Shown: one piece after another, positions 40,368-48,529 of the stretch | Layout: each line of letters opens with the position of its first letter | Numbering within the stretch: position 1 is the first letter of the stretch | Source of the DNA: Anaerolineaceae bacterium | Lineage (GTDB): Bacteria; Chloroflexota; Anaerolineae; Anaerolineales; Anaerolineaceae | DNA length: 64,000 bases | Direction of reading: 5' to 3' | NCBI GenBank assembly: GCA_016841445.1 | Contig: JAENZD010000001.1 | Location: 1,426,001-1,490,000, forward strand | Position numbers and translations under genes: made by a program | Notes under the pieces: generated by a model | Told to the model about the DNA's origin: nothing | Databases searched by the model: none | The model's input: the letters and a program-made list of their open reading frames with translations, nothing else

Positions 40368-41378
40368 ATGGCAGGACTATCAAAAGAACTCGGCATTGAT
40401 TTGGGAACATTGAATACCCGTATTGCCGAAGGTAAGAACATTCTAATTCAAGAGCCCACCATCGTCGCGATTCTTCTGGATGAGTTGAAACTCGTTGAAA
40501 TTGGACAATCTGCTCTGGATATGCTGGGGCGGGTACCTGAAAACATCGAGGTCAACCGTCCCCTTCGTCATGGTGTCATAGCGGAATTTGAGATCACTGA
40601 AAATCTATTGAGGGAGTGGGTCCGGCAGGTTACAGGTCGAATGCTGCTATTCCGTCCGAGCCTGATGATCGCAATCCCATACGGCATCACAAGCGTTGAA
40701 CGGCGTGCAGTTTATGAAGCAGGTCTAGGCGCTGGAAGCCGAGATGTCAATCTAATCCAGCAACCTCTTGCTGCAGCCATTGGTGTTGAATTGCCCATTG
40801 GGACCCCGACGGGCAACATGATCATCAGTTTGGGCGGTGGAACATCACAGGCTGCTGTCCTGGCAATGAACGGAATCGTTACGGCCAAAACGAGCCGTAC
40901 TGCTGGCCTTTACCTGGACGATGCAATTATCGATTACGTTCGCGAAAAATATGGCTTGATCATCGGCCAGCCCACAGCAGAACAACTGAAAATTCAAATT
41001 GGTGCCGCAATTCCCCAGGACGAACAAAAAATGATGGAAATTCAGGGGCAGGATCAGGTCACAGGTCTCCCGCGCCCTGCCAGCCTGACCTCTGATGAAA
41101 TCGTAGAGGCAATTCAACGTCCTTTGGAGGACATAGCTAACATGATCCGCAAAGTATTAGAATCAACACCGCCAGAATTGATCTCGGATATTATTGATCG
41201 GGGTGTAGCTCTTTGCGGTGGAACTTCATTGCTGCGCGGGATTGATCGATTTCTTACGAAATCGTTAGGTATTCCAGCTTACCTGGTTGACAACCCATTA
41301 ACTTGTGTTGTTGAAGGATCCGCAAAATCTTTCTCAATGTTGGATGTACTCAGCCGTAACCTACCCTCAATGTCTTAG
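40368..41378 (+). CDS. MreB/Mbl family actin-like protein
   Basis: A 336-residue actin-fold protein. It has phosphate-1 motif GIDLGTLNTRI, PSLMIAIPYGITSVERRAV, the LIQQPLAAAIG segment, the phosphate-2 motif MIISLGGGTSQAAVLAM, and the adenosine motif ALCGGTSLLRGID. MreB filaments guide cell-wall growth in rods. No mreC or mreD follows, so this may be a diverged paralogue. AAGGA lies ahead of the ATG. Confidence 0.85.
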   Translation: MAGLSKELGIDLGTLNTRIAEGKNILIQEPTIVAILLDELKLVEIGQSALDMLGRVPENIEVNRPLRHGVIAEFEITENLLREWVRQVTGRMLLFRPSLMIAIPYGITSVERRAVYEAGLGAGSRDVNLIQQPLAAAIGVELPIGTPTGNMIISLGGGTSQAAVLAMNGIVTAKTSRTAGLYLDDAIIDYVREKYGLIIGQPTAEQLKIQIGAAIPQDEQKMMEIQGQDQVTGLPRPASLTSDEIVEAIQRPLEDIANMIRKVLESTPPELISDIIDRGVALCGGTSLLRGIDRFLTKSLGIPAYLVDNPLTCVVEGSAKSFSMLDVLSRNLPSMS

Positions 41379-41394
41379 ACAAGAGTGATAAGAA

Positions 41395-42210
41395 ATGATT
41401 GAAAAAATTAAACTCAAGATGTTTACACCAAAACAACCCCCAGAAGATCTTGGAAGTCAGATCGAATTTTTCCATCTCCGAAAAAATGGGATAAAACAGC
41501 GCATTTCTTTGGGCTTAAGTATATTGATAGTCGCCCTCATTATCGTTTTTTTTATCCTAAAAGTAGCTATTGCTCTGTTTAAAGTTCAAAACTATGGACG
41601 TGCCATTGTCGTGCAACAATTTTCGGGATTTCCACCGATTTTTTATTTTTTATTGTTAATCGCTGTTTTATCATTCCTTTTATCAATTTATTTCAAGAAA
41701 ATTGGGGTCCACATCTTCAAAAATGGAATTCTCATTGATAATCTCTTCCATAAGCGCACCGTCATTTGGGAAGATATTATTGAATTTGATTCTCGCATTG
41801 TAAATTCTAAATTTGGAGATTCAATTATCAGCACTAACGCAAAAATTAAGATGCGAAATAAAGATAAGCGCCAAATTATAATTCGTAATGAATTTGACCA
41901 AATGGAAAAATTTATTCAGAAGCTCCGGGAAGGGATAATTCCAATCTTATTCAGGAATGCTTACAGCCATCTTGCACATGGAAAAACTCTAAAATTTCAT
42001 GATAATTTACTTGTCATCAAAACCGGGGTCGAGATCAAAGATCATTTCTATACTTGGCCGGAAGTGACCAAAGCGAAAACAAATCATGGCAAGCTGGAAT
42101 TGTGGACCACACCCAACCCAAATAACCCTTCCATTTTTTCAATTGATGAGATCACAAATCTGGACTTGTTACCCTATCTGATCAACAACCCGCCTAAAAC
42201 GAACAACTAG
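41395..42210 (+). CDS. membrane protein with PH-like domains (possibly DUF6585-like)
   Basis: A 271-residue protein with two membrane helices (about residues 40-62 and 79-98) followed by a soluble part of about 170 residues. That part reads like two small PH-like beta domains: VHIFKNGILIDNLFHKRTVIWEDIIEF, then LKFHDNLLVIKTGVEIKDHFYTWPEVTKAK. This layout recalls DUF6585 proteins, a comparison from memory. It is AT-rich compared with neighbours and starts 17 bases after the mreB-like gene. Confidence 0.5.
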   Translation: MIEKIKLKMFTPKQPPEDLGSQIEFFHLRKNGIKQRISLGLSILIVALIIVFFILKVAIALFKVQNYGRAIVVQQFSGFPPIFYFLLLIAVLSFLLSIYFKKIGVHIFKNGILIDNLFHKRTVIWEDIIEFDSRIVNSKFGDSIISTNAKIKMRNKDKRQIIIRNEFDQMEKFIQKLREGIIPILFRNAYSHLAHGKTLKFHDNLLVIKTGVEIKDHFYTWPEVTKAKTNHGKLELWTTPNPNNPSIFSIDEITNLDLLPYLINNPPKTNN

Positions 42211-42211
42211 A

Positions 42212-42841
42212 TCAATCATCCGAAAGATAATATAAAGTCCTTTGCAGCTGCAGAACCGGATCAATATTCTGGAGCTGTACCGATCCTGGTACGATCAATG
42301 TGACGGGTGCATAGTTCAATATCGCTTGAATACCCGCTTCTACCAGCCGGTTTGCGATGATTTGAGCAACCGCTGCCGGTACAGTTATTATCGAAATCTT
42401 GAAATTGTTCTTCTGGATTTCAGATTCCATAGTGTCAACATGGCGAACAACAACAGAACCGATCTGGGTGCCAACGATTTTGGGGTCGATATCAAATAGC
42501 ATCGCAATTTCAATCCCACGCTGTGCAAATCCCTGGTATCGGGCTAGAGCCCTGCCAAGATCTCCTGCACCTACAATAATTGCTGACCAGACACGATCCA
42601 TATTCAAGATTTTTTGCAGCTGCTCAATCAAATGGTAGATTGAATAACCGGTGCCTTGTTTTCCAAACCCACCAAAAAATGAAAGGTCTTTACGAATTTG
42701 TGCTGCTGTTGTACCTACTCTTTCTGCCAGGACTTTGGATGAAACCGTATGCCATCCCTCTTTTGCCATCTGGTTCAAAGTCTGCAAGTACGACGGCAAC
42801 CGGCTGATAACAATATCGGGGACTGATGAGGTGTCATTCAT
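42212..42841 (-). CDS. rex: redox-sensing transcriptional repressor Rex
   Basis: Senses the NADH/NAD+ ratio and represses fermentation and respiration genes when NAD+ is high. The 209-residue protein has the N-terminal winged helix (RLPSYLQTLNQMAKEGWHTVSSKVLAERVGTTAAQIRKDLSFFG in outline), the Rossmann motif IIVGAGDLGRALARY, and the domain-swap C-terminal helix. Rex suits an anaerobe. AGGA is 8 bases before the ATG. I found no perfect Rex operator beside it. Confidence 0.95.
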   Translation of the reverse strand: MNDTSSVPDIVISRLPSYLQTLNQMAKEGWHTVSSKVLAERVGTTAAQIRKDLSFFGGFGKQGTGYSIYHLIEQLQKILNMDRVWSAIIVGAGDLGRALARYQGFAQRGIEIAMLFDIDPKIVGTQIGSVVVRHVDTMESEIQKNNFKISIITVPAAVAQIIANRLVEAGIQAILNYAPVTLIVPGSVQLQNIDPVLQLQRTLYYLSDD

Positions 42842-43022: not shown

Positions 43023-43391
43023 ATGCGCACGGGAAGAATTATTGCTTATATTGCAGCGGCAATCTTTATTATTTTTGCCTTTCTGTTCATATTGGGTGCA
43101 TTCAGCCCTGAGGGATCACCTGGCTGGATCATCATAGGTATCATCGGTCTGGTTATCGGTTTTGTCCTGATTTTTGTAGGGACCAAACTCAGCCCTCCTC
43201 AAAAAGCAGGAGACCAGGTCGTGAACCTGCAAATCGATCTGCCGGGTGAAGTTGAAATGGAAACCATAAAATGCAAGTCTTGCGGCGGTCCTCTTTCACC
43301 TAAAGACATCAAAATGGTCGCAGGCGCGCCAGTTGTTGAGTGTCCCCATTGTGGAACAACCTATCAAATTACTGAAGAACCCAAATGGTGA
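43023..43391 (+). CDS. small membrane protein with C-terminal zinc ribbon
   Basis: A 122-residue protein with two membrane helices (about residues 7-28 and 37-56) and a C-terminal zinc ribbon whose ligands are C-x-x-C in KCKSCGGPLS and C-x-x-C in VECPHCGTTY. It ends 3 bases before the ATG of the Cys-Ala-tailed protein, so the two are surely co-transcribed and may form a complex. ACTGGAGG lies ahead of the ATG. No named function. Confidence 0.7.
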   Translation: MRTGRIIAYIAAAIFIIFAFLFILGAFSPEGSPGWIIIGIIGLVIGFVLIFVGTKLSPPQKAGDQVVNLQIDLPGEVEMETIKCKSCGGPLSPKDIKMVAGAPVVECPHCGTTYQITEEPKW

Positions 43392-43394
43392 ATT

Positions 43395-45146
43395 ATGAAA
43401 AAATTTAGGACTATTTTAGTTTCACTGCTGTTTCTTTGCATTTTTCTCTTACCGGTCACGGTAACCGCGCAAAGCTACAACTTCGAAGTGCCATTTCATG
43501 AGGTTCAGGTATATATCGAGGAAGATGGCACCATTTCTATCCAATATATCATTGAATTTCAGAACAGGCCGAATGCCCCGGCGATCGAATTTGTGGATAT
43601 TGGCATGCCCAACCGGACATACAGCATGAACAACATCAAAGCTGATATCGATGGTAATGCAATAACTGATTTCGAAAGTTCAGACTTTGCACCGAATGCC
43701 TTCGCTTTAGTGCTTGGTGATCAATCCATCCAGGCTGGCCAAAATGCAACAGTAAGTGTGTGGATCCCCGGTGTAGAAGATGTACTCTTTCCATATGATG
43801 AAAGCGACCGTGAAAATTACGTTAGCTTCCAATTCAGTCCTAACTGGTTCGATCCAGATCTGGATAAAAGCACTTCAACTGATTATGCCCTCACGATCAT
43901 CCTCCCACCCGGGGTAGGCAATGAAGAAGGTGTCTACTATAATCCAGAAAATTGGCCGGGTTCCCAGGAACCCACAGAAATTGGGCGTACGGAGGCTGAA
44001 GACAGGGTTTATTATTACTGGTTCACCGATAATGCCAACCTCCATACCCAATATATCTTCGGCGCGGCATTTCCCAGCCAATATGTACCTGCAGAAACCC
44101 TGGTCACAAAACCCACTGAAATTGAACAAAATGGCACATCAAGCTCTCCAGGTTTTATCAACTGGATCACTACAGCTCTTTGCGCCAACCTGCCGTGCGC
44201 AGGATTTGCCATATTTTTCATTGCCATCTTTGGATGGGGCGTCTACCAGGGGACTGTTGGCAACCAGAAGCGCAAGTTGAAATACCTGCCACCTAAAATG
44301 AAAATTGAAGGCAACGGTATTAAGCGCGGGTTGACGGCAGTCGAAGCAGCGATTGTTATGGAACAGCCCATGGATAAGATCCTGACGATGATCTTATTTG
44401 GTGCGCTGAAGAAAGAAGCTGCAGTGGTCATCCAGCAAGAGCCGTTGAAGTTGGAGGTTGCTGAACCATTACCAGAAAAACTGCATCCGTATGAAGTCGA
44501 TTTCTTAAAGGCATTTGATCTGCCTGAATCAAAACGTCGGACAGCCTTGCAGCAATTGATGGTTAGTCTTGTTAATAGCGTATCCACCAAGATGAAGGGT
44601 TTCTCCCGCAAAGAAACCATAGCCTATTATGAAAGTATCATGCAAAAAGCATGGAAAATGGTTGAAGATTCAGATACGCCAGAAGTTAAAAGCGAGAATT
44701 ATAACGACACCCTCGAATGGACAATGCTGGACCAGGAATACCAGGACCGCACTCGACGCACATTTATGGGTGGTCCAGTCTTTGTGCCTATGTGGTGGCC
44801 GCGTTATTCTCCGGTCTATCGCCGCACCATAGGCGGTACCGTTAGCAACCCTGTCCCAGCAGCGGTGAGAACCTCAACTGGTGGGGGTGGCGGCAAAGTT
44901 TCGCTGCCCCACATCCCGGGATCCGATTTTGCTGCCGGCGTGATCAACGGTACGACAGGTTTGGCCGCCGGCGTAGTCGGCAACCTGACATCCTTCACCA
45001 ACGGTGTAACCACACGTACCAACCCCATCCCTGTTTCAACTTCACGTAGTGGTGGGGGTGGATTCAGCGGAGGTGGTGGAAGTTCTTGTGCCTGCGCTTG
45101 TGCTTGCGCTGGATGCGCTTGTGCCTGTGCCGGCGGCGGGCGTTAA
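43395..45146 (+). CDS. DUF2207-like membrane protein with alternating Cys-Ala C-terminal tail
   Basis: A 583-residue protein. It has a signal peptide (residues 1-25, ending VTVTAQ), an extracellular beta-rich domain (about 26-235) of DUF2207 character, a membrane helix near 258-282 (CAGFAIFFIAIFGWGVY), and a cytoplasmic region with a winged-helix-like piece (LTAVEAAIVMEQP). After a Gly/Ser/Thr-rich stretch it ends in a tail of seven cysteines, C565, C567, C569, C571, C574, C576 and C578, separated by Ala, then GGGR. The tail is on the cytoplasmic side, facing the radical SAM protein encoded next. I infer the tail is modified or binds metal; nothing here proves it. Confidence 0.75.
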   Translation: MKKFRTILVSLLFLCIFLLPVTVTAQSYNFEVPFHEVQVYIEEDGTISIQYIIEFQNRPNAPAIEFVDIGMPNRTYSMNNIKADIDGNAITDFESSDFAPNAFALVLGDQSIQAGQNATVSVWIPGVEDVLFPYDESDRENYVSFQFSPNWFDPDLDKSTSTDYALTIILPPGVGNEEGVYYNPENWPGSQEPTEIGRTEAEDRVYYYWFTDNANLHTQYIFGAAFPSQYVPAETLVTKPTEIEQNGTSSSPGFINWITTALCANLPCAGFAIFFIAIFGWGVYQGTVGNQKRKLKYLPPKMKIEGNGIKRGLTAVEAAIVMEQPMDKILTMILFGALKKEAAVVIQQEPLKLEVAEPLPEKLHPYEVDFLKAFDLPESKRRTALQQLMVSLVNSVSTKMKGFSRKETIAYYESIMQKAWKMVEDSDTPEVKSENYNDTLEWTMLDQEYQDRTRRTFMGGPVFVPMWWPRYSPVYRRTIGGTVSNPVPAAVRTSTGGGGGKVSLPHIPGSDFAAGVINGTTGLAAGVVGNLTSFTNGVTTRTNPIPVSTSRSGGGGFSGGGGSSCACACACAGCACACAGGGR

Positions 45147-45168
45147 TTAATTCTAAGATCAATCATTG

Positions 45169-45192
45169 CTCCTGGTGATTTTTCACCAGGAG
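45169..45192 (+). promoter_or_regulatory. hairpin covering the ribosome binding site of the radical SAM gene
   Basis: CTCCTGGTGA and TCACCAGGAG form a perfect 10-bp stem with a 4-base loop. There is no T tract after it, so it is not a classical terminator. The AGGAG that could act as Shine-Dalgarno sequence for the ATG at 45204 lies in the right arm; a second weak candidate, AGG at 45195-45197, is outside. Confidence 0.6.
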
Positions 45193-45203
45193 TTAGGTAT
45201 AGA

Positions 45204-46583
45204 ATGAAAAGACAATCAAACGATATTTTCAATAAACAATCCAATGGAAATGGATCGAAGAATCTCCCGGGCGATGGAATTTATCATTACCGCCTGGAAG
45301 AAAACGATAGTAAATCGCGCATCCATCTGCGGATTGACCCGGATGAGCAGGGTCTCCTGATCATAAACGCGAACAAAGTCGTCCATCTCAACCCAACTGC
45401 AGCAATCATGGCTTATCTGCACCTGGAAAAAACCTCACCACGAGAAGCTAGCCGGGTGCTCCGCCAGAAATTCCGGATTTCACGCAGCCAGGCGAAACAA
45501 GATTACCAATATTTTCTTCACCAACTTGACGAATTATTAGACCCTAATAACGGATGCCCAATTTGCGATTTAGACCTGGAGACGACTGCCCCGTTCAGCG
45601 CCAGGCCCAGTGCACCCTATCGCATGGATCTTGCGCTCACCTATCGCTGCAATAATGACTGCAGCCACTGCTACAATGCCCGTTCCCGGCGCTACCCTGA
45701 AATGTCAATCGAACAATGGAAACAGGCTATCGATAACATTTGGGATTTGCGCATCCCACATATTGTGTTCACTGGTGGTGAGCCAACACTTTATAAAGGG
45801 CTCCCTGAACTGGTCCAATACGCAGAGCAGACCGGCCTGATCACTGGTTTAAATACCAACGGCCGCAATCTGGCCGACCCAGGCTTTCTTGATTCATTAA
45901 TCGAAGCTGGATTAGACCATGTGCAGGTTACACTTGAATCTCATGATCCCGGTATCCATGACAAAATGGTCGGTGCCAAAGGTGCAAGGGCAGAGACTGT
46001 AGCGGGCCTAAAGAATGTGATGGATTCCAGCTTGTATATCATGACCAACACGACTCTGCTAACCCATAATTACACCTCGATCGCAGAAACCCTTGCTTTT
46101 TTAGCGGATCTGGGGATACCAACAGTCGGAATAAATGCCCTGATTTACTCAGGAAAGGGAGAATCAGTTGGGACAGGATTGAATGAGGGAGACCTCCCCA
46201 ATCTATTAGAAACTGCACGGCAAATCACGTCAGCAAATGGACAGCGGTTGATTTGGTATACACCCACCCAATACTGCCACTTCAACCCAATCCAACTGGA
46301 TCTGGGTGTTAAAGGCTGCACTGCTGCCCTGTATAACATGTGCATAGAACCCAACGGTGACGTGATCCCCTGTCAATCATATTACGAATCACTTGGAAAC
46401 TTCCTGGAAAATCCTTGGGAAGCAATTTGGGAACACCCGCTCGCCCTGGAATTGCGCAACCGAACAAACATCCCGGAGGGGTGCCGTTCCTGTGATTTTT
46501 TACCGGAATGCGGTGGCGGATGTCCCCTGGCCAGGGAACATCAAGAAGTTCATCCAATTCAGAATCCAGTTTTTATCAATTAA
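45204..46583 (+). CDS. radical SAM/SPASM peptide-modifying enzyme with PqqD-like N-terminus
   Basis: A 459-residue enzyme. Residues about 25-115 look like a PqqD-type peptide-recognition domain (IHLRIDPDEQGLLIINANKVVHLNPTAAIMAYL). The radical SAM core begins at C149, C153, C156 (RCNNDCSHCYN) for the SAM-bound 4Fe-4S cluster, with GGEPT from residue 191. The C-terminal SPASM domain has cysteines in GCTAALYNMCIEPNGDVIPCQ and CRSCDFLPECGGGCPLA. SPASM enzymes with this layout install thioethers or other crosslinks in ribosomal peptides. The Cys-Ala-tailed protein just upstream is the obvious candidate substrate. Confidence 0.9.
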   Translation: MKRQSNDIFNKQSNGNGSKNLPGDGIYHYRLEENDSKSRIHLRIDPDEQGLLIINANKVVHLNPTAAIMAYLHLEKTSPREASRVLRQKFRISRSQAKQDYQYFLHQLDELLDPNNGCPICDLDLETTAPFSARPSAPYRMDLALTYRCNNDCSHCYNARSRRYPEMSIEQWKQAIDNIWDLRIPHIVFTGGEPTLYKGLPELVQYAEQTGLITGLNTNGRNLADPGFLDSLIEAGLDHVQVTLESHDPGIHDKMVGAKGARAETVAGLKNVMDSSLYIMTNTTLLTHNYTSIAETLAFLADLGIPTVGINALIYSGKGESVGTGLNEGDLPNLLETARQITSANGQRLIWYTPTQYCHFNPIQLDLGVKGCTAALYNMCIEPNGDVIPCQSYYESLGNFLENPWEAIWEHPLALELRNRTNIPEGCRSCDFLPECGGGCPLAREHQEVHPIQNPVFIN

Positions 46584-46598
46584 AGGGAGTAGATAGAT

Positions 46599-47762
46599 AT
46601 GGTACTCAAGAATTTCACTAAAACGATAAAAGATTTCTTCTCACAAAAAGAGACCATTCCATCCGGTTTATATTCTTGCCAGACGCCACCGGAAGAAAAA
46701 GAACAGTACAAGCTGCATCTTCGGATTGAAAAGGACGGATGCGGGCTGCTGGTCATTAATGCCTCAACGGTCCTTCACCTGAGCCAGACGGCTGTTGAGT
46801 ATGCGTACCATATCATCAAGCAAACCAGGGAGAAGAAGGTCATTAATCAAACCTCACGCCGCTACCAGGTCGGAAAAGAACAAGTAAGATTAGATTTTGG
46901 GGCGTTTCAAAATATAATCCAAACCTTAATCATGACGAATGATTTAGATCCAGTTACCTACCTGGATATCGAAAGGCAGGAACCTTATTCTGCGGAAATC
47001 TCCGCCCCCTATCGATTGGACTGTGCATTAACGTACGAGGTTAATCAAGAAGATCTACGGGAGTATGCCCCCCTCGATCGAGTTGACCGGGAATTAACCA
47101 CCAATGAATGGATTGCAGTGATGCAGAAAGCCTATAACAACGGGATCCCGCATTTGCTTTTTACAGGGGGTGAGCCTACCCTGCGCGAAGACCTACCAGA
47201 ACTCCTGATGAAGGCGGAAGAACTTGGATTGGTCACCGGCCTTCTGACCGATGGTGTAAAACTTGGGGATGACGAATACAGAAACACCCTGTTGATGAGC
47301 GGCTTGGACCATCTAATGGTGCTCTTCGATCCAGAAAAGGATCAAACCTGGAATATTCTTGAGAAGGTTTTGGCTGAAGACATGTTCACAACCGTCCATC
47401 TAACGTTAACCAAAGGAAAGCAACTGCAGCCTGGCATCAAACGGTTGGCGGAGATGGGTGCGAACGCGCTTTCATTGAGCACAACAGATGAAGATTTGCA
47501 GGATGAACTCCAGTCCCTGCAAGATTATGCCGCGATTCACCAGCTTGAACTGGTATGGGATATGCCAGTGCCGTATTCCAGGAACAATCCAGTCACACTA
47601 GAAATGAAACGAGCGGAGACAACCGCTCCTCCGGAAGGGGCAGGAAAAGCCTGGCTTTATGTGGAGCCAGATGGTGATGTGCTGCCAGCCCAGGGCATGT
47701 ATAACCAGATCCTTGGGAACATACTGGAAGATTCCTGGGAGGATATCTGGCAAAAGGAGTAA
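46599..47762 (+). CDS. radical SAM paralogue lacking cluster cysteines (likely pseudoenzyme)
   Basis: A 387-residue protein clearly related to the enzyme encoded 15 bases upstream: the same N-terminal PqqD-like part (LHLRIEKDGCGLLVINASTVLHLSQTAV), the same APYRLDCALTY lead-in, and TGGEPTLRED in the core. But the CxxxCxxC position reads YEVNQEDLREY, with no cysteine, and the C-terminal part (WLYVEPDGDVLPAQGMYNQILGN) has lost its SPASM cysteines and stops about 35 residues early. It should not bind iron-sulfur clusters. The frame is intact, so it is probably a working partner or substrate-binding subunit, not a decaying gene. Confidence 0.85.
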   Translation: MVLKNFTKTIKDFFSQKETIPSGLYSCQTPPEEKEQYKLHLRIEKDGCGLLVINASTVLHLSQTAVEYAYHIIKQTREKKVINQTSRRYQVGKEQVRLDFGAFQNIIQTLIMTNDLDPVTYLDIERQEPYSAEISAPYRLDCALTYEVNQEDLREYAPLDRVDRELTTNEWIAVMQKAYNNGIPHLLFTGGEPTLREDLPELLMKAEELGLVTGLLTDGVKLGDDEYRNTLLMSGLDHLMVLFDPEKDQTWNILEKVLAEDMFTTVHLTLTKGKQLQPGIKRLAEMGANALSLSTTDEDLQDELQSLQDYAAIHQLELVWDMPVPYSRNNPVTLEMKRAETTAPPEGAGKAWLYVEPDGDVLPAQGMYNQILGNILEDSWEDIWQKE

Positions 47763-47779
47763 ATATTCCCGCATATTCG

Positions 47780-48529
47780 TTGAGCCTTTCAGAATGGCAT
47801 CAGCGCTACCAGCAGCAGGCATCCTGGACACGGCATATCCGTGATTACCTTTTTGCTAAATTAGCGATACAAAAGGGCGATCCGGTGCTTGAAGTAGGTT
47901 CAGGCACCGGTGCGATTTTGTCAGAAGTCAAAAAAAAGCATGCTTACAATATCTTGGGAATTGATATTGACCGACCTTCTTTAGAATTCTCAAAAGAAAT
48001 CATCTTATCCCCTCGTCTGGTTCAGGGTGATGGTTACCAGCTGCCTTTCGCTGCGCATATTTTTTCTGCGACATTCAGCCATTATCTCCTGCTCTGGCTG
48101 CAAAGGCCAGGTAAGATGCTGAATGAAATGCAGAGAGTGACAAAAACAGGCGGTGCAGTGATCGCACTGGCGGAACCGGACCACCAATCCCGCATCGACT
48201 TTCCCCCACCTCTGGATCACCTTGGAGCGCTTCAAGCACAAGCTCTCAAGGATCAGGGCGTTGATATTACAATTGGGCGGAGACTCGGGAAATTATTTTA
48301 TGAATGCGGATTCGAAAATATTGAAACCGGTGTGCTCGGCGCTCAATGGACGGAAGGTATCAGCAATGAAAACGATGAAACGGAATGGATGGCCCTCCTT
48401 TCAGATCTTTCTGGTCAGCTTTCACATGAAAAATTAGCCCACTATAAGTCCATAGATGACCAATCCAGACGTGCTGGTACGCGTATCCTGTTTATCCCCA
48501 CTTTCTATGCTATCGGTTTTGTCAAATAA
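47780..48529 (+). CDS. class I SAM-dependent methyltransferase
   Basis: A 249-residue methyltransferase. SAM-binding motif I is VLEVGSGTGAIL, motif II DIDRPSLEF, and the post-motif region is LVQGDGYQLPFAAHIFSATFSH. The start appears to be TTG at 47780, 17 bases after the radical SAM paralogue stop; AAGGAG overlaps that stop, rather far from the TTG. It closes the apparent operon of the Cys-Ala-tail system and may methylate the same target, though methyltransferases of this class act on many substrates. Confidence 0.82.
   Translation: MSLSEWHQRYQQQASWTRHIRDYLFAKLAIQKGDPVLEVGSGTGAILSEVKKKHAYNILGIDIDRPSLEFSKEIILSPRLVQGDGYQLPFAAHIFSATFSHYLLLWLQRPGKMLNEMQRVTKTGGAVIALAEPDHQSRIDFPPPLDHLGALQAQALKDQGVDITIGRRLGKLFYECGFENIETGVLGAQWTEGISNENDETEWMALLSDLSGQLSHEKLAHYKSIDDQSRRAGTRILFIPTFYAIGFVK

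Follow-up and report, generated by a model that had tools for sequence, protein, structure and literature searches.

The genome of the Anaerolineaceae bacterium analysed here harbours, within a stretch of 64,000 nucleotides (the window), five genes predicted to act together in the post-translational modification of a membrane protein at its C-terminal tail. According to this reading, to which we assign a probability of roughly 0.55, the radical SAM enzyme C, assisted by its dead paralogue D, would make thioethers in the Cys-Ala tail of protein B, and the methyltransferase E would add methyl groups. The conserved tail and its near-constant enzyme partner suggest, at the level of sequence, that a membrane protein undergoes a chemical modification not described before. 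In open-licence PMC text, no paper on the tail or on the gene set was found among those listed, nor any paper joining DUF2207 and radical SAM proteins. The genes and their features are the following.

Gene A, 43023..43391, + strand: 122 aa, small membrane protein with two hydrophobic segments (hydropathy), then a four-Cys zinc-ribbon-like domain
Gene B, 43395..45146, + strand: 583 aa, membrane protein, remote DUF2207 homologue
Cys-Ala tail of B, 45087..45143, + strand: residues 565-583, CACACACAGCACACAGGGR followed by the stop codon, proposed substrate
Gene C, 45204..46583, + strand: 459 aa, radical SAM/SPASM enzyme with N-terminal PqqD-like domain
PqqD-like (recognition) domain of C, 45357..45533, + strand: residues 52-110 (Pfam)
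Radical SAM cluster motif CX3CX2C of C, 45648..45671, + strand: Cys149, 153 and 156, invariant in alignment A2
SPASM cysteines of C, 46317..46523, + strand: Cys372-X12-G-X4-Cys390 and Cys427-X2-C-X5-C-X3-Cys440, invariant in A2
Gene D, 46599..47762, + strand: 387 aa, pseudo-radical-SAM paralogue of C
Gene E, 47780..48529, + strand: 249 aa, TTG start, class I SAM-dependent methyltransferase

The five open reading frames occupy 43023-48529 on one strand in an operon-like arrangement, with intergenic gaps of 3-57 nt. Protein A possesses four Cys, its zinc-ribbon matches being mostly under the cut-off, and its family shares a conserved C-terminus, YQltEePKW (consensus of 70 rows). Enzyme C matched the Pfam families Radical_SAM (8.6e-26), SPASM (2.1e-9) and PqqD (25.5 bits, cut-off 23.4), and E matched Methyltransf_11 (8.8e-16). 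The spacing of the SPASM cysteines was read from the sequence; alignment A2 comprises 31 rows of C, window included, with three C2 rows and three other rows left out. Among the NCBIfam models listed, none reached its own cut-off for B, C, D or E. These results are in agreement with an earlier note on this DNA, which described five genes in a row encoding a zinc-ribbon membrane protein, a membrane protein with an alternating seven-Cys tail, a radical SAM/SPASM enzyme with a PqqD-like domain, a paralogue of that enzyme and a methyltransferase.

Protein B contains, in this order, a signal-like segment, a beta-rich domain, one transmembrane helix, a helical domain, a disordered Gly/Ser linker and the Cys-Ala tail. 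Hydrophobic segments were detected at residues 7-25 and 261-279 (hydropathy), and the predicted model has a pLDDT of 83.0, with values of 33-45 in the tail. The Pfam search of B from the window returned 0 families at E<=1, and in the B family the matches to PF20990 (3/29 members, best 0.018) and PF09972 (2/29, best 0.052) did not reach the gathering score. Assignment to DUF2207 by Pfam alone was abandoned, and profile-profile comparison was used instead. With hhalign, B is homologous to DUF2207 (PF09972/PF20990) over 463 columns, with a probability of 99.5, an E-value of 2.8e-22 and 15% identity. The earlier description of B as DUF2207-like is thus borne out by profile-profile comparison and fails in Pfam. 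DUF2207 proteins proper differ from B in their Gly/Ser-rich tails devoid of Cys clusters (at least three Cys in the last 60 residues: 0 of 28 complete C-termini) and in their surroundings, with the radical SAM enzyme found within about 1.5 kb in 0 of 30 loci. Foldseek matched B to domains of M1 aminopeptidases and to subunits of OST; TM-scores did not exceed 0.32 among the matches listed, which is too weak for the fold to serve as a functional clue.

The tail carries seven Cys at positions 565-578, and TRF flags its DNA as a repeat. All 46 distinct B homologues, window included, end in (CA)n-G-(CA)3-GGGR-stop; they derive from the 47 best-scoring loci of two whole-protein searches rather than from every match, and one of these searches used the window protein alone as query. 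The last 19 residues are identical in 44 of the 46 and are encoded by 44 different DNA spellings, with a mean of 11.1 of 57 nt differing per pair. Five of 35 B matches did not end in GGGR, and correspond to contig ends, a frameshift, a paralogue fragment and an unrelated 878-aa ORF. Alignment A1 of B contains only GGGR-ending rows (the window and 28 of 30 such rows). Part of the invariance seen at its very end is thereby built in, and a bias towards tailed proteins applies to A1, to A3 and to the B profile. The tail was also found in other phyla, including Asgard archaea. Cultured carriers include Ornatilinea apprima and Bellilinea caldifistulae (L096, L155). The host genome has three overlapping CACACA-coding sites, all within the B tail, and other targets in the same genome were discounted on this ground.

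The order A-B-C-D-E was found again in the ORF maps of relatives; this recurrence, together with a constant tail peptide encoded by variable DNA, argues that gene set and tail are not a product of chance. An accidentally conserved neighbourhood with a low-complexity extension on B is highly improbable: slippage can lengthen short repeats of the kind called by TRF, but it does not account for a peptide that stays fixed while its spelling varies, nor for a co-occurrence with C that survives when the genes are unlinked.

The pairing of C with the tail is strongly implied by the distribution of both across genomes. Among the class genomes, C is present in 53 of the 55 that have B and in 3 of the 242 that lack it, at cut-offs (B 1e-70, C 1e-140) chosen after the lists were seen. 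In genomes of the archaeal (Asgard) phylum, a set that includes one genome (G357) picked for having the tail, C was found in 25 of the 26 with the tail and in 7 of the 122 without it, and the reversed-pattern control gave 0. The earlier note had regarded a general lack of radical SAM genes near tailed homologues as evidence against its proposal; this condition was checked, and the proposal was not refuted. The tail-pattern search revealed at least 118 loci of up to 8 kb, and C lies within the locus in 96 of the 118 listed; only the ending is unforced in these loci, because the pattern prescribes CACACAGCACA, one additional Cys and bases one and two of the Ala codon. For the 22 listed loci without C inside, C occurs elsewhere in 21 of the genomes (9/9 and 12/13), in some as fragments; the first of these genome checks covered 14 hand-picked genomes, nine without C in the locus and five others. 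The L148 genome has a D-like match only and no C.

After the second search the exceptions were G303 (B, no C), G322 (B, C2-like match only) and G457 (tail, no C). C without B was detected in three class genomes, C being located at a contig end in G065 and G174, and G064 possesses C and E with no B within 12 kb. Single cases may be due to contamination, since organism names are record titles, mostly of metagenome bins. The co-occurrence also holds where the genes are unlinked, and C and E remain neighbours away from B in genomes of Loki and Sigyn. Three loci (L040, L107 and L160) speak against the proposal in that D follows B there, with C elsewhere in the genome. On the counts of 96/118 loci, 21/22 remaining genomes and 25/26 archaeal genomes, it is well supported that C serves this tail, with the reservation that the genomes are kin by descent and the counts carry no phylogenetic correction, so the tables overstate independence. 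Of the earlier claim that C modifies the tail of B, the pairing of enzyme and tail stands on these counts; that a modification takes place, its chemistry and the action of E on the tail are what we infer.

The tail could also be an unmodified thiol or metal-binding element with a redox or metal-sensing function, C, D and E modifying something else. The seven Cys at regular spacing and the zinc-ribbon-like end of A are compatible with such a function, as is the lower acid and peroxide tolerance of Streptococcus mutans upon deletion of a DUF2207 gene, as given in the available part of PMC10457818. We consider this explanation quite unlikely, because it leaves unexplained why tail and C go together in both domains, why the enzyme is absent beside DUF2207 proteins without Cys clusters, and how six tails came to light in a search that started from the enzyme.

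These six belong to a second kind of tail. At least three tail types were identified in Bacteria and Archaea, CA (type I), CHSA (type II) and CA-GGGRAGC (type III), and remote B homologues possess other cysteine tails adjoining relatives of C. In six class genomes with a type II enzyme and no B match, a CHSAC-tailed protein was present directly upstream in 6/6. In total, type II comprises 24 tailed loci; C lies inside 22 of them, and in the remaining two cases it was found at another place in the genome. In type III, C lies directly upstream of the tail gene in 8/8 loci. Each of these two tail types has its own enzyme group, the type II and type III enzymes being monophyletic (100/100 each; three and four rows of a 43-row tree). 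The PqqD-like domain is also present in the type II enzyme tested, and no match to it was reported for the type III enzyme, from Hungatella. Type II sets contain recurring unnamed neighbour genes. E relatives adjoin C in 8 of the 9 archaeal C loci examined, and Asgard archaea possess B, C and E without D. E was found in 0/6 type II and 0/8 type III loci, and methylation is therefore not general.

The tail types also bear on the chemistry. C may act on the tail without making thioethers, either by epimerising alternating Cys-Ala residues (EpeE/PoyD-type) or by oxidising Cys (sulfatase-maturing type). PoyD-type enzymes are epimerases, and the substrate motif of anaerobic sulfatase maturases is Cys-X-Ala/Pro-X-Arg. 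The strict two-residue alternation of type I would suit an alternating epimerase, and both EpeE and anSME turn up as neighbours, by structure or by sequence (D model; C profile). However, type II tails have a period of four residues and type III tails are irregular, yet the Cys are kept in both, and the sulfatase-type motif is absent from the B tail as read from its sequence. This kind of activity is rather unlikely.

The two best PDB sequence matches of C are the peptide enzymes SkfB (7e-25) and PqqE (6e-24), followed by the non-peptide enzymes BlsE, GDGT-MAS and MoaA, and by SuiB and anSME. In NCBIfam, the top matches of C include PqqE and the mycofactocin maturase, both scoring under the cut-off; QhpD is absent among the best 25 of 83. 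These matches, and a fixed stretch borne by a protein, would fit B as a carrier whose tail, once modified, is released by cleavage as a small molecule or cofactor, in the manner of PQQ and mycofactocin. Nevertheless, type I sets show no recurring extra gene alongside in ORF maps in which the other ORFs were left unnamed, and type III tails are internal, with roughly 20 to 40 residues after them, which makes a carrier function very unlikely.

Protein D retains the N-terminal domain and the barrel, and has lost the cluster ligands. The earlier note had called it a cysteine-free paralogue of C; the paralogy is upheld, but D possesses Cys 27, 48 and 142, and it is the Fe-S ligands, both CX3CX2C and the SPASM cysteines, that are missing, as in the D homologues. 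Its predicted model has a pLDDT of 91.4, with SuiB, SkfB and PqqE as neighbours. C2, like D, has lost CX3CX2C. The 43-row tree places the dead paralogues D and C2 apart (93/96); two separate origins are not claimed despite this split, since the AU test did not reject a single joint clade (p 0.262).

Among known systems, the maturases of sactipeptides and ranthipeptides (SkfB, SuiB, AlbA and CteB, which we take to be 5wgg) resemble C in combining radical SAM, SPASM and an N-terminal recognition domain, and in having a Cys-rich target encoded next to the enzyme; SkfB is also the closest sequence in the PDB. Their substrates are small leader-core precursor peptides, whereas here a 583-aa membrane protein bears the candidate target as its tail, which stays the same from one phylum or domain to another; no recurring peptidase or exporter was seen in the ORF maps (other ORFs unnamed). 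The combination of methyltransferase, zinc-ribbon-like protein and radical SAM protein also occurs in DVU_1556/DVU_1557/TrsS, whose models (NF045667, NF045645 and NF045646) presumably describe one system. E matched NF045667 at 5.7e-14, and membership was rejected, as the three models scored 52.1 of 155, 13.1 of 60 and 57.4 of 490 bits, far under the curated cut-offs.

Two further systems offer parallels to single features. QhpD makes thioethers inside QhpC, a larger protein that functions as such and is the gamma subunit of quinohemoprotein amine dehydrogenase; these are Cys-Asp/Glu links (PMC8172795, available part); B differs in being a membrane protein with Cys-Ala repeats, and the type I tail has neither Asp nor Glu. 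Thuricin CD involves two paralogous radical SAM proteins, catalytic TrnC and TrnD, which is mainly a partner and with a mutated CxxxCxxC still supports TrnC crosslinking, slightly less well (PMC12093266, from the portion accessible). TrnD is described there as a still active radical SAM enzyme, in contrast to D and C2 with their lost motif.

In the proposed mechanism, B would be anchored by its one transmembrane helix with the tail on the cytosolic side, and C would bind the tail region via its PqqD-like domain. By 5'-deoxyadenosyl radical chemistry, C would join tail Cys sulfurs to carbons of neighbouring small residues, forming sactionine-like thioethers with a mass loss of 2 Da each. D may be a binding partner of C, comparable to TrnD for TrnC, E would next methylate the tail or the free GGGR end, and the modified product would remain on the membrane protein. 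Alanine is a known sactionine acceptor, as in RumC1 (Cys5-Ala12) and Trn-beta (Cys9-Ala25), both given in the available text of PMC8172795. Across ten tails chosen as representative (one of type I, one of type II and eight of type III), 82 of 84 cysteines are preceded by Ala, Gly or Ser, and links to the adjacent residue are proposed for this reason. Such links might close a six-membered ring as in enteropeptin, a small antimicrobial peptide with a sactionine from Cys to the preceding N-methylornithine (PMC12395415, available part). This is at once the most specific and the most speculative element of the proposal, the ring geometry being derived for the B tail from the residue preference alone.

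We tentatively consider a more far-reaching possibility, a doubtful one, in which the system represents its own class of radical SAM chemistry in Bacteria and Asgard archaea. The permanent cytosolic tail, each Cys cross-linked to its neighbour, might then form a chain of small thioether rings, tethered to the membrane and acting as cofactor or sensor. The catalytic/dead pair might be its maker in Chloroflexota, the free GGGR end might be methyl-capped, and the class might span the three or more tail types, II and III with their own enzyme groups.

Radical SAM maturases are known mainly for small peptides, with QhpD on QhpC as the precedent for a protein. In the present case a membrane protein is the likely substrate. 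Its tail is kept residue by residue from Anaerolineae to Asgard archaea, and this conservation points to a cellular role rather than a weapon. The gene set would provide a biochemical handle on DUF2207-type proteins, and its repeat units, cognate enzyme groups and dead partner may offer a natural design for the study of substrate choice and processing by these enzymes.

The five genes described in the earlier note as standing in a row on one strand correspond to ORFs A-E, which are spaced by 3-57 nt. The features are as follows.

40368-42841: mreB, a DUF6585 protein gene and rex, 5′ of the gene set
43023-48529, one strand: A (zinc-ribbon-like membrane protein), B (tailed membrane protein), C (radical SAM/SPASM enzyme), D (dead paralogue of C), E (methyltransferase)
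43023-43391: A
45555-45566: Cys118-Cys121 of C

Protein A possesses two hydrophobic segments followed by a four-Cys zinc-ribbon-like end, in agreement with its first description, and its family shares a conserved C-terminal YQltEePKW. Protein B (583 aa) harbours, by hydropathy, a signal-like segment (7-25) and a single TM segment (261-279), and the seven tail cysteines reported for it were counted. The predicted model of B (pLDDT 83.0) comprises a beta-rich N-domain, the TM helix and a helical domain, with the linker and tail (residues 550-583) disordered. Because a basic stretch follows the TM helix, the tail would face the cytosol by the positive-inside rule. Protein C matches the Radical_SAM, SPASM and PqqD domains, as had been proposed. 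An extra CPxC-type pair, Cys118-Cys121, lies between its PqqD-like and radical SAM domains; in the alignment of C rows Cys118 never varies and Cys121 is kept in at least 90%, and a further cluster may be bound here. Paralogue D gives a weak Radical_SAM match (4.7e-7), its cluster ligands are missing, and the claim that it is cysteine-free does not strictly hold, since three other cysteines are present. Its predicted model (pLDDT 91.4) resembles SuiB, SkfB and PqqE. E is a class I methyltransferase, as expected. The upstream mreB, DUF6585 and rex genes are common to three loci of the genus (L022-L024), L055 has mreB and rex, and this neighbourhood is absent from most other family loci fetched.

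Searches with the whole B protein or a B profile gave, in the best-scoring 47 loci, 46 distinct B proteins, the window protein counted. Every one of them terminates in (CA)n-G-(CA)3-GGGR-stop; n is 4 in 35 proteins, 5 in nine and 3 in two. Forty-four identical 19-residue ends are encoded by 44 distinct DNA sequences, with a mean difference of 11.1 of 57 nt. In the alignment of B rows, which admitted only rows with a GGGR end, C567-A570 and C574-A579 are invariant against a mean column identity of 45%. In the tail it is the peptide that is under selection. Tandem B pairs with slightly different Cys-Ala tails beside one enzyme set were found at L238 and L242 (genomes G325 and G209), and G247 has two adjacent B matches. 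An 878-aa ORF with a B-like N-terminal domain match (L053, 6442-9078) adjoins ABC genes and has no Cys tail.

Among 36 fetched loci of relatives, some on cut contigs, 31 contain a B ending in GGGR; by ORF caller, C (28), D (28), A (27) and E (26) lie within 8 kb of it on the same strand. A pattern scan revealed at least 118 tail loci in named genomes. According to record titles, 84 belong to Chloroflexota and six to Asgard archaea (Hodarch-, Heimdall-, Sigyn- and Lokiarchaeota); further groups include Fermentibacterota, Planctomycetota, Acidobacteriota, Armatimonadota, Hydrogenedentota, Coates-, Edwards- and Zixibacteria, and Hungatella hathewayi. The scan pattern leaves the GGGR-stop ending unforced, and 79 of the 80 loci listed show it exactly, the exception being Hungatella. 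The ORF caller found an AGGGR end in 114 of the at least 118 loci; L118 and L131 have this end in the pattern-scan listing, L156 has an extension and L195 reads GGGGGR. In 148 archaeal genomes from the phylum of a Hodarchaeota genome, CACACAGGG occurs at 27 places in 26 genomes, each followed by GGGR-stop, and the reversed pattern gave no match.

The possibility that tailed homologues mostly lack nearby radical SAM genes is contradicted by these loci: C is present in 96 of the at least 118 (A in 76, E in 58), and for 21 of the 22 other loci the genome carries C, a few copies being fragments. The L148 genome has a D-like match and no other C match. Exceptions persist after a repeat search: C was not found in G303 and G457, and G322 gave a C2-like match only (C2 being a second group of dead C paralogues). 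Counted by genome, with numbers inflated by relatedness, 297 Anaerolineae genomes (B at E<1e-70, C at E<1e-140) include 55 with B and 56 with C (both 53, B only 2, C only 3, neither 239), and the 148 archaeal genomes (tail by pattern, C at E<=1e-100) include 26 with the tail and 32 with C (both 25, tail only 1, C only 7). C lies inside the fetched stretch at 23 of 27 archaeal tail loci. Genomes of the Loki and Sigyn groups have C and E next to each other and apart from A and B; therefore, the association is more than mere neighbourhood.

Of the dead paralogues, D occurs in 54 of the at least 118 loci, Chloroflexota throughout, and C2 in six, from Chloroflexota, Armatimonadota and Planctomycetota. 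C2 keeps four SPASM cysteines and has lost CX3CX2C; gene order in this branch is A-C-C2-B-E or parts thereof, and its tail has four CA following G. Both groups are monophyletic (100/100 each, five rows each), and D and C2 may have arisen once or twice, a single joint clade being compatible with the AU test (p 0.262).

The description of B as DUF2207-like stands at profile level (probability 99.5, E 2.8e-22, 463 columns, 15% identity). DUF2207_C is present in 46 of 60 class genomes. Among these 60, DUF2207 is absent from nine of the ten B carriers and present in 45 of the 50 others, a nearly exclusive distribution, as if B stood in for DUF2207. In Streptococcus mutans, deletion of a DUF2207 gene lowered acid and peroxide tolerance, according to PMC10457818. 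As a control, 28 complete C-termini of DUF2207 proteins were inspected, and in no case do the final 60 residues contain three or more Cys. The stretches of about 1.5 kb fetched on either side of 30 DUF2207 loci are likewise free of the enzyme (0 of 30); several of these control genomes carry a type II enzyme elsewhere.

This type II belongs to a second tail, found in 18 of twenty weak B matches fetched: 48-53 residues of CHSAC/VHDAC-type units ending in SACV-S/G-x-F or V. Of the other two, L235 is a genuine DUF2207 protein that lacks both Cys tail and enzyme, and L236 is a fragment of B. A C relative lies inside 16 of the 18 loci, and the remaining two genomes carry one elsewhere. Starting from the enzyme, six class genomes were taken that have no B match and whose enzyme is type II-like (E 1e-87 to 1e-92); in all six, a CHSAC-tailed protein lies directly upstream of it. 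Each type II genome has its own C-family enzyme, and the tail is a second modification candidate. Type II loci (L218-L234, L237, L340-L345; class genomes) have a near-constant tail; the L218 membrane protein shows weak TIGR04222 similarity, and two kinds of ORF recur in the vicinity, one of ~163 aa weakly matching A and one of 370-480 aa.

In type III, the Hungatella type, the tail protein is immediately preceded at 8/8 loci (L296-L303) by an enzyme that matches the C profile. Homologues of this tail protein occur in eight of 80 genomes of the Hungatella family (Lachnospiraceae), Hungatella counted. Their tails, ...CACACAGGGRAGC(S/T)xKDFY... or SSCASSCACASSCACACACASSGRAGC..., are internal and not at the very C-terminus; the type can be written (CA)nGGGRAGC(S/T)xKDFY, and gut bacteria are its accessible carriers. 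E adjoins C at eight of nine archaeal C loci, against 0/6 type II and 0/8 type III loci examined: E accompanies tails with GGGR as free C-terminus.

Among solved structures, the two nearest to C in sequence are those of the peptide enzymes SkfB and PqqE, followed by BlsE, GDGT-MAS, SuiB, MoaA, CteB and anSME. In ten representative tails, Ala, Gly or Ser precedes 82 of 84 Cys. Ala is a known sactionine acceptor, as passages of PMC8172795 state. Cys could be linked to the preceding residue, forming a six-membered ring as described for enteropeptins in parts of PMC12395415. The precedent for a putative partner role of D is TrnD of TrnC/TrnD: in PMC12093266, the authors' model has the leader mostly bound by TrnD, and crosslinking persists with slightly reduced activity when TrnD is without its radical SAM cysteines. 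By analogy, we infer such crosslink chemistry in the tail and such a role for D.

The NCBIfam matches listed for C, D and E all score under their cut-offs (for C the highest is 123.3 bits against 500), and B had no match at E<=0.1. Those members of types II and III that were tested likewise stay under every cut-off. No description of the tail or the gene set was found in the literature searched. On its sequence, C is filed as a radical SAM/SPASM peptide-maturase relative. The whole set would be a variant among such systems, since the candidate substrate is a conserved membrane protein and the set includes a dead paralogue.
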